From NCBI GenBank assembly GCA_021234155.1, contig JAJEKV010000017.1:1727467-1791466 (forward strand): 64,000 nucleotides of DNA. Reading direction: 5' to 3'. How positions within the stretch are numbered: the stretch's first letter is position 1; every line of letters starts with the position of its first letter. Source of the DNA: Isoetes taiwanensis. Its lineage: Eukaryota > Streptophyta > Lycopodiopsida > Isoetales > Isoetaceae. Both the position numbers and the translations under genes were made by a program. The notes beneath the pieces were generated by a model. That model did no database searches. It worked only from the letters and a program-made list of their open reading frames with translations, and had not been told where the DNA came from. Below are positions 22,476 through 23,703 of the stretch, piece by piece.

Positions 22476-23703
22476 ATGGCGGGCACCAAACAAATAGCTC
22501 GGAACTATCGATCCAGTGAACAGCCTAGCGCCTAAGATAAGAGGCGGATACAACAGCTCCTTCGAGAGCAGCTTCTCGCTCGAGGAGACCAACTTCCATC
22601 AGCTGAGGAGAGCGCTTCGGACGAGCTCCAGGAGGAGGGATCCGAGCAAGGATCACTAGAAGAACTGGTTGACCTCATCAACCAGGAGTTAGATGGAGAA
22701 GAAGAAGTGGAATCCGAAGGCTCGATGGACGAGGAGACTCAAAGAGAGTTCGATCAGATTGAGCAGCAGATACAAGAACAAGAGAGGGTAGAGCAAGAGC
22801 AGGCCGCCCAGGCACCAGATGAACAGAAGGAGCCCACTCCCGAGCCGACCCTGGAAGAAGAACTCGAGACCTGGATCAAAATGCAGGAGGCGAAGTTACA
22901 GCGCAAGAAAAGGAGAAAGGCCGAGAAGAAAAGAAAGCGAGAAGAACAGGAGGCGGAGGAGAAGAAGAAACTCAAGGGAAAGGGCAAGGAGGAGCCCAAG
23001 AGGAAGATGAAGACGACACCCACGGTCAAGCTCGTCATCAACGAACGGCAAGCAGATCAGCCCCCATCCTCTGATGACGAAGATGATGAAGACTACAATC
23101 CTCATCATGAGGTAGGGAGCTCCTCCAAACCAATAGACGAGGATCGGACGGACAGGGATCGGCAGATACAGACACCCCCACCCTACCCCACGTGGGAGAA
23201 GGAGAAGGATCCAAAGAAGCCTCCCCGACCTATGTGGTAGACCATCGCAGGTTCTACCAGAAGAAATTAAAGGCCTACCAGGAATACATGAAGAAGTGGG
23301 AGGCCTACAACTCCTACTATCAGGCAAACAAGGTCACTTACATCGAGGGAGGACGGCCATCGAAGAAGAAAACGCTCAAGCCACCTCCAGAGAAGACGGT
23401 ACCTCCCAAGAAGCCAATAGCGAGGAAGCCCGGATCAAGACTGTCACAAGCAGTTCGGGAAATCCGGCATTTTCAGAGAAGTTACGGCCTTCTCATCCCG
23501 CGTGCACCATTCGCCAGGCTCGTCAAGGAAGTCGTACAGGAGTTCGACTCGAGCATGAGAGTCACAGGTGAAATGCTGCTAGCCTAGCAGAGTAGAAGTT
23601 GATGCAACATTTTGAAGACTCAAGGGCGTGCACTATACACGCCAAAAGAGTAACGTTGATGACCAAGGATATGCACTTGGCAAGCTCCATTAAAGGGGAA
23701 TGA
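22476..23703 (+). pseudogene. Retrotransposon ORF with histone H3-like tail and histone fold
   Basis: Domains in order: an N-terminus MAGTKQIARN resembling the histone H3 tail; an acidic, then Lys/Glu-rich coiled-coil-like region (about codons 75-190); an acidic patch DDEDDEDY; an aromatic-basic stretch (FYQKKLKAYQEYMKKW); then a histone H3 fold from about 23,420. Fold landmarks are AVREIRHFQRS, LLIPRAPFARLVKE, FDSSMRV, then FEDSRACTIHAKRVT, KDMHLA and KGE, ending at TGA 23,701-23,703. By eye about half the fold positions equal canonical H3. Loop 1 has the normal H3 length, not the longer loop usual in CENH3. Damage: TAA at 22,533, a frameshift near 23,240, another near 23,580 and TAG at 23,593. 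Expected place of action is chromatin; any function is inferred. It has its own TATA box and hairpin pair. Confidence 0.85.
23420..23703 (+). other. Histone H3 fold region of the ORF
   Basis: The first half (to 23,584) reads in one frame and the second half (from about 23,576) in another. Together they cover alpha-N, alpha-1, loop 1, part of alpha-2, loop 2 and alpha-3. The conserved Cys-X-Ile-His-Ala-Lys-Arg core before alpha-3 is intact. The residue equivalent to H3 K79 is Asp here. Confidence 0.85.

Follow-up and report, generated by a model that had tools for sequence, protein, structure and literature searches.

A Histone H3-Type Gene ahead of gag in LTR Retrotransposons of Isoetes taiwanensis

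Results

An H3 Gene Precedes gag in a Ty3/gypsy Element

In a 64,000-nt stretch of the Isoetes taiwanensis genome (contig JAJEKV010000017.1 of assembly GCA_021234155.1; the whole stretch is called the window, and coordinates are positions within it), we find a long terminal repeat (LTR) retrotransposon, a Ty3/gypsy chromovirus with two extra genes ahead of gag, the first of which encodes a long-tailed histone H3. That the product of this open reading frame (ORF) is a histone is near certain, and we hold with very high confidence that the gene belongs to the retrotransposon itself. The copy in the window has the following parts:

22476..23703, plus strand: element-encoded H3 gene, decayed copy (identified from histone profile matches, other copies and dN/dS)
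22476..22511, plus strand: H3-like N-terminal tail, MAGTKQIARNYR in the window and MARTKQTARKYR in better copies (from translation and copy alignment)
23420..23587, plus strand: H3 fold, alpha-N to the start of alpha-2
23602..23703, plus strand: H3 fold, loop 2, alpha-3 and C-terminus, in another frame

Two pieces of the window copy match the Pfam Histone profile (PF00125) above its cut-off of 26.4 bits, one at 23114-23584 (E = 1.7e-9, profile positions 24-79 of 122) and one at 23602-23700 (E = 6.2e-7, positions 95-121 of 122), and histone H3 chains in the Protein Data Bank (PDB) match them with E values of 7.6e-9 and 6.7e-8, respectively. The original prediction, made from the letters alone and proposing this profile search, had described an ORF that ends in an H3 fold, and the H3 landmarks indeed lie at the places and in the order claimed: SQAVREIRHFQRSYGLLIPRAPFARLVKEVVQEF falls within 23111-23587 and is followed by FEDSRACTIHAKRVTLMTKDMHLASSIKGE and a stop codon at 23701-23703, so that the ORF ends where H3 ends. 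The fold is thus confirmed, but in the window the two histone halves lie in separate frames and the copy is broken by internal stops. Two features had been overlooked, namely that the ORF opens at 22476 with MAGTKQIARN, which is H3's own beginning with changes (MARTKQTARK in better copies), and that a second ORF (ORF2, ∼24432-25970) lies between the H3 gene and gag.

Intact Copies Reveal a Long-Tailed H3

When the assembly that contains the window (1.66 Gb, 1110 contigs) was searched at the DNA level with the fold as query, 1004 candidates yielded 41 rows at 40 places, one of them the window itself; these numbers are lower bounds. We fetched 37 of the 39 non-window places, all of them selected by fold match, so that the counts given here cover copies with the fold. 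The whole ORF is present in 30 of the 37 copies, with the match beginning at base 1 in 29 of them and at base 19 in one, and extending in all 30 to base 1225 or further. Three copies have uninterrupted ORFs, of 416 (L013), 429 (L038), and 415 (L039) residues; continuity, which the original prediction had proposed to check on a consensus, was assessed here on these single intact copies. Their layout is an H3-like N-terminus (exactly MARTKQTARK in two of the three), ∼320 mostly charged residues, and then a full H3 fold that ends at H3's end. In L038, residues 340-425 match profile positions 36-121 of 122 in PF00125 (E = 1.3e-24), and PDB H3 is matched at 6.2e-24. The element fold is 88 residues long, compared with 89 in host H3, and ends in KGER where the host protein ends in RGERA. 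The tail departs from the canonical length of ∼40 residues: the fold of L038 begins at about residue 335, and only its first ten residues match H3.

In an alignment of 30 window-family rows (29 copies and the window), the first ten residues, counting the Met, are exactly MARTKQTARK in 13 rows, and residue 5, corresponding to K4 of H3, is Lys in 29. Omitted from this alignment were seven copies with an incomplete ORF (L009, L020, L024, L028, L031, L036, and L045) and L044, in which the ORF is covered but which is the most divergent copy (70% identity).

The ORF is under purifying selection, which is strongest in the fold. Pairwise dN/dS ratios among the three intact copies are 0.18-0.21 for the whole ORF, 0.08-0.10 for the fold, and 0.13-0.33 for the linkers; the 12-codon tail gives 0-0.19, a stretch too short to weigh. 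Over all pairs of the 30 rows the values are 0.21 (whole ORF) and 0.10 (fold), which understate the constraint because decayed copies drift toward 1. Ratios this low suggest that the ORF was selected, translated, and useful while the element lineages were active and spreading. The conserved fold would fit a role that depends on histone pairing, and the conserved tail start of the window family would suit a protein recognized by the host factors that read and write H3 marks. On balance, we favor the reading that the element encodes a long-tailed variant of H3, which would form a pair with H4, become part of chromatin, and weaken silencing.

The decay of the window copy would also suit a pseudogene or processed copy of host H3 that happened to land in one element. 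The original prediction had named two refuting outcomes: the lack of a significant histone-profile hit, which did not come about, and element copies devoid of the segment together with insertion breakpoints of a host H3 pseudogene around this copy. The pseudogene explanation is ruled out, with a residual probability close to nil, by the whole ORF in 30 of 37 copies, the three intact copies, the purifying selection, and the H3-fold genes of the sister families described below. A local insertion of host H3 is excluded on the first three of these grounds; copies were sampled through fold matches, a procedure in which fold-less copies could not appear.

Sister Families Carry H3 Folds Close to That of the Host

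A search of the genome with the Pfam Histone profile scored 150 places out of 8705 loose candidates. All 150 exceed the cut-off, and five contain an internal stop. The first 15 were taken as canonical host H3, judged by score; among the remaining 135 places, 55 lie in frames of at least 300 residues and 36 in frames of at least 400. Eighteen places were fetched, comprising four canonical H3 genes (L046-L049), from which the host H3 appears in our reading to be of the plant type, and 14 others, each with an H3-fold frame, which in 12 cases measures at least 367 residues. Sorting by eye placed nine of these 14 loci in family A, two in family B, and three in family C. The ten that were aligned (alignment A3) share an N-terminal domain that differs from that of the window family. 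In the ten aligned members (L050-L060), this domain comprises ∼220 residues and was modeled with fair confidence; no clear structural match to it was seen.

The fold of families A-C is 82%-88% identical to host H3, with dN/dS ratios of 0.011-0.109 in the eight of nine pairs for which a ratio could be computed. Residue 5 (K4 of H3) is Lys in all ten rows of the alignment, and the exact H3 1-9 tail is not kept. These properties bear on a second explanation, in which the protein is a decoy that titrates H4 or H3 chaperones and tail readers or writers through its H3 1-9 tail, depriving host silencing of them, and is not a stable part of the nucleosome. It would account for the tail starts that are exactly those of H3 (13 of 30 rows) and for a linker whose length would make it bulky in a nucleosome. 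It sits poorly with a fold more constrained than the linkers among the intact copies, and with families that keep a near-canonical fold but have lost the exact tail, and we consider it unlikely.

Downstream sequence of the sister families was covered for one member each of B and C. The family B member has an ORF followed by a reverse transcriptase (7.2e-34), and the family C member has ORF2, homologous to ORF2 of the window family (E = 7e-11), followed by a gag-protease frame that also gives a weaker integrase match. Compared with these two members, the window element is 92% identical over 89 residues of reverse transcriptase, 52%-55% in a second reverse transcriptase piece (84 and 92 residues, broken frames), 49%-57% in gag, 27%-56% in the protease region depending on the piece, 37%-54% in the integrase C-terminus and chromodomain, and 25%-32% in ORF2; for the H3 fold, represented by L038, the figure is 52%-53%. 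These values would suit one old lineage that has evolved together with its histone; the alternative is that the histone of the window family is a separate capture.

H3 or CENH3

Of two trees, the first places families A-C with host H3 (support 89/91). In the second, smaller tree the support for this placement is only 52/80, and the window family joins two plant CENH3s, from Arabidopsis and maize, which serve here as provisional reference sequences (84/85). The latter grouping would accord with a centromeric route: the histone of the window family would be CENH3-like, through either a capture of its own or convergence, and would seat element DNA or integrase in centromeric chromatin. At the eight sites where the two reference CENH3s agree with each other and differ from H3, the window-family fold has five of the CENH3 residues (P63, A65, T85, E87, and L89), family A one, and family C none. 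Set against this, loop 1 of the window family has the length found in H3 and lacks the longer loop of CENH3, being two residues shorter than in both reference proteins; trees that place the window family beside H3, beside families A-C, or beside both are not rejected (p-AU 0.18-0.19); in the 13 rows mentioned above the tail begins exactly as H3 does; and a host CENH3 was looked for and not found. We regard the centromeric route as rather improbable.

The Carrier Is an Ordinary Chromovirus with Accessory Genes

Apart from the two pre-gag genes, the window element has the standard parts of a Ty3/gypsy chromovirus:

15952..15956, no strand: 5′ target-site duplication TCCAA, read from the flanks; the identical five bases stand directly 3′ of the 3′ LTR
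15957..16211, plus strand: 5′ LTR, first part (TGTGACGT...), sharing 96% identity with the beginning of the 3′ LTR; boundary with the insertion approximate
16212..20497, no strand: nested later insertion of ∼4.3 kb that splits the 5′ LTR and is not in the 3′ LTR; edges approximate
20498..21778, plus strand: 5′ LTR, second part, ending ...ACGTCACA judged by the 3′ LTR and ACGCCACA in the window copy; 92% identical to the 3′ LTR, gaps included
21780..21791, plus strand: primer-binding site TGGTATCAGAGC, immediately 3′ of the 5′ LTR end
26204..28117, plus strand: gag and protease, split into frames (Pfam PF03732 5.9e-9, RVP_2 1.5e-9)
27976..28898, plus strand: reverse transcriptase, two frames (RVT_1 2.3e-7 and 2.8e-16)
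30155..30853, plus strand: integrase C-terminus, an SH3-like domain and a chromodomain (SH3_Tf2-1 1.8e-20, Chromo 3.4e-9)
31807..33355, plus strand: 3′ LTR, starting TGTGACGT and ending ACGTCACA; pairs with the split 5′ LTR at 15957-21778
33356..33360, no strand: 3′ target-site duplication TCCAA, read from the flanks

The element thus has LTRs, a TCCAA duplication, a primer-binding site (presumably of the initiator-tRNA-Met type), gag, protease, reverse transcriptase, and a chromodomain following SH3_Tf2-1. Together with the intact copies, the LTRs and Pfam matches support what had been proposed, namely a gene upstream of gag in an LTR retrotransposon, with an H3 fold at its end and a chromodomain in the same element. 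The Kimura two-parameter (K2P) distance between the two LTRs is 0.049 (1515 aligned bases). At locus L065, the integrase core family rve is matched at 1.4e-7 with 32.1 bits, slightly below the cut-off of 32.6.

The region between the LTR and gag has further features:

21983..22053, plus strand: hairpin 1, 5′ of the H3 gene (-34.2 kcal/mol, z = -8.9)
22195..22265, plus strand: hairpin 2, 5′ of the H3 gene (-32.3 kcal/mol, z = -6.9)
22366..22373, plus strand: TATAAATA, putative internal promoter of the H3 gene, ∼110 nt 5′ of the ATG
23847..23917, plus strand: hairpin 3, between the H3 gene and ORF2 (-24.8 kcal/mol, z = -4.4)
24050..24120, plus strand: hairpin 4, 5′ of ORF2 (-30.9 kcal/mol, z = -8.9)
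24311..24318, plus strand: TATAAATA, putative internal promoter of ORF2; TATA motif in 19 of 20 copies
24432..25970, plus strand: ORF2, the second pre-gag gene, broken in the window; no Pfam family

Of the 20 window-family copies searched, 17 have an alignable upstream region, and 16 of these show a TATA motif ahead of the H3 gene. The N-terminal part of ORF2 is present in all 20 copies fetched as 8-kb segments, and gag was seen in ten of them, a count that truncation, nested insertions, and the 8-kb cut may limit. The four hairpins are related, 71 nt each, stand two ahead of each pre-gag gene, and fold far better than shuffled sequences.

A packaging role, in which the histone would coat element cDNA within the virus-like particle or upon exit, as some giant-virus histones do, finds some encouragement in the basic linker stretches next to a histone fold and in the known giant viruses that organize their genomes with histones. 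A single histone type was found in the element, partial ORF2 (446 residues) gives no Pfam match at E ≤ 0.01, and the putative separate promoter of the window family suggests nuclear use; we judge packaging improbable.

Elsewhere in the window, a GC-rich block (57%-61%, positions 1-10022) consists of diverged repeats ∼70%-80% alike, in which Tandem Repeats Finder reports no array, and positions 45019-52000 hold a ∼3.5-kb tandem duplication with 96% identity.

Discussion

The preferred reading, a long-tailed H3 that enters chromatin, can be put as a sequence of steps. In the window family, H3 residues A1-R2-T3-K4-Q5-T6-A7-R8-K9 form the front of the protein, followed by the ∼320 mostly charged residues and the whole H3 fold. 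It may be made from its own promoter, enter the nucleus by way of its lysine/arginine-rich linker, pair with H4, and be placed in nucleosomes, where the altered tail could render the chromatin of new element copies or insertion sites less easily silenced. Host silencing of retrotransposons acts largely through marks on the H3 tail. Placement in chromatin as the partner of H4 is probable; that the main benefit lies in resisting silencing is a more tentative suggestion.

Several observations weigh against this reading. The window-family fold is only 53%-57% identical to host H3 in the nine rows compared and, by alignment, is without R63 and the R128/R129 pair. The histone part has low confidence in two AlphaFold models, whose alignments are shallow or poorly matched there. 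Of ten loci from the other families, only three have a TATA motif ahead of the H3-fold gene (257-300 bp searched). Finally, the element chromodomain finds its best match in chromodomain 2 of Chd1 (1.6e-6), with the HP1-type CBX5 at 0.0027, and so may not read methylated H3 tails; these matches give no support to a direct connection of the chromodomain with the histone tail.

We found no histone-carrying retrotransposon of this kind described in the literature and protein databases searched. The order of LTRs, primer-binding site, gag, aspartic protease, reverse transcriptase, and integrase C-terminus with chromodomain is that of Ty3/gypsy chromoviruses, from which the window element differs in its two additional genes ahead of gag, the first being histone H3. 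Pre-gag ORFs occur in Ogre/Tat elements, and we know of none there that contains a histone. Host H3 and CENH3 share the fold and, for the window family, H3 shares the first ten residues; the element version differs in its long tail insertion or replacement and in being multicopy and carried by retroelements. For two non-histone regions, the protein search gave no relative at E ≤ 0.001, and among the best 120 of 1527 matches to the whole protein the query cover is 24%-36%. Five of these 120 examined in full are canonical H3s in tandem or fused to other sequence. A predicted protein of the tick Dermacentor silvarum (P0085) has, in our reading, a complete H3 at both ends with a gag-like stretch in the middle; the prediction may be a gene model that has merged an insertion lying in a histone cluster.

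Single viral histones offer further parallels. Viruses with a lone H4 or H3 gene are described in a review on viral histones (PMC9145170), whose main text does not use the word retrotransposon. The bracovirus histone H4 treated there (CvBV-H4), which enters host nucleosomes, is likewise one core histone of host origin, with a lengthened N-terminal tail, in a virus-derived carrier, but it is an H4 with 38 additional residues in a DNA virus-like system, whereas the present protein, from a retrotransposon, is an H3 to which several hundred are added; we claim no homology. The xenomavirus H3 is also a single H3 encoded by a virus and shares 77% identity with host H3 across the fold and alpha-N (PMC9145170); it belongs to a DNA virus, and its description there mentions no comparable tail extension. 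As in these cases, the histone of I. taiwanensis is encoded by the element, and entry into chromatin would here be the presumed counterpart.

The histone gene is the part for which no counterpart was found, on a backbone that is otherwise ordinary. It is conceivable, if still less than an even prospect, that an old and diverse LTR retrotransposon lineage holds a nucleosomal histone as a standing gene, equips it with new tail domains, and rewrites the chromatin of its own copies; the genome would then contain, at many places (150 scored of 8705 loose candidates), selfish histone variants that are made by elements and read and modified by the host. If so, a retrotransposon-made H3 with a selected, altered tail would amount to a new means of countering or exploiting silencing and a new source of histone variants. 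Whether mobile elements can give themselves a chromatin identity becomes testable with this finding, and nucleosome studies gain a naturally occurring series of long-tailed H3 proteins.
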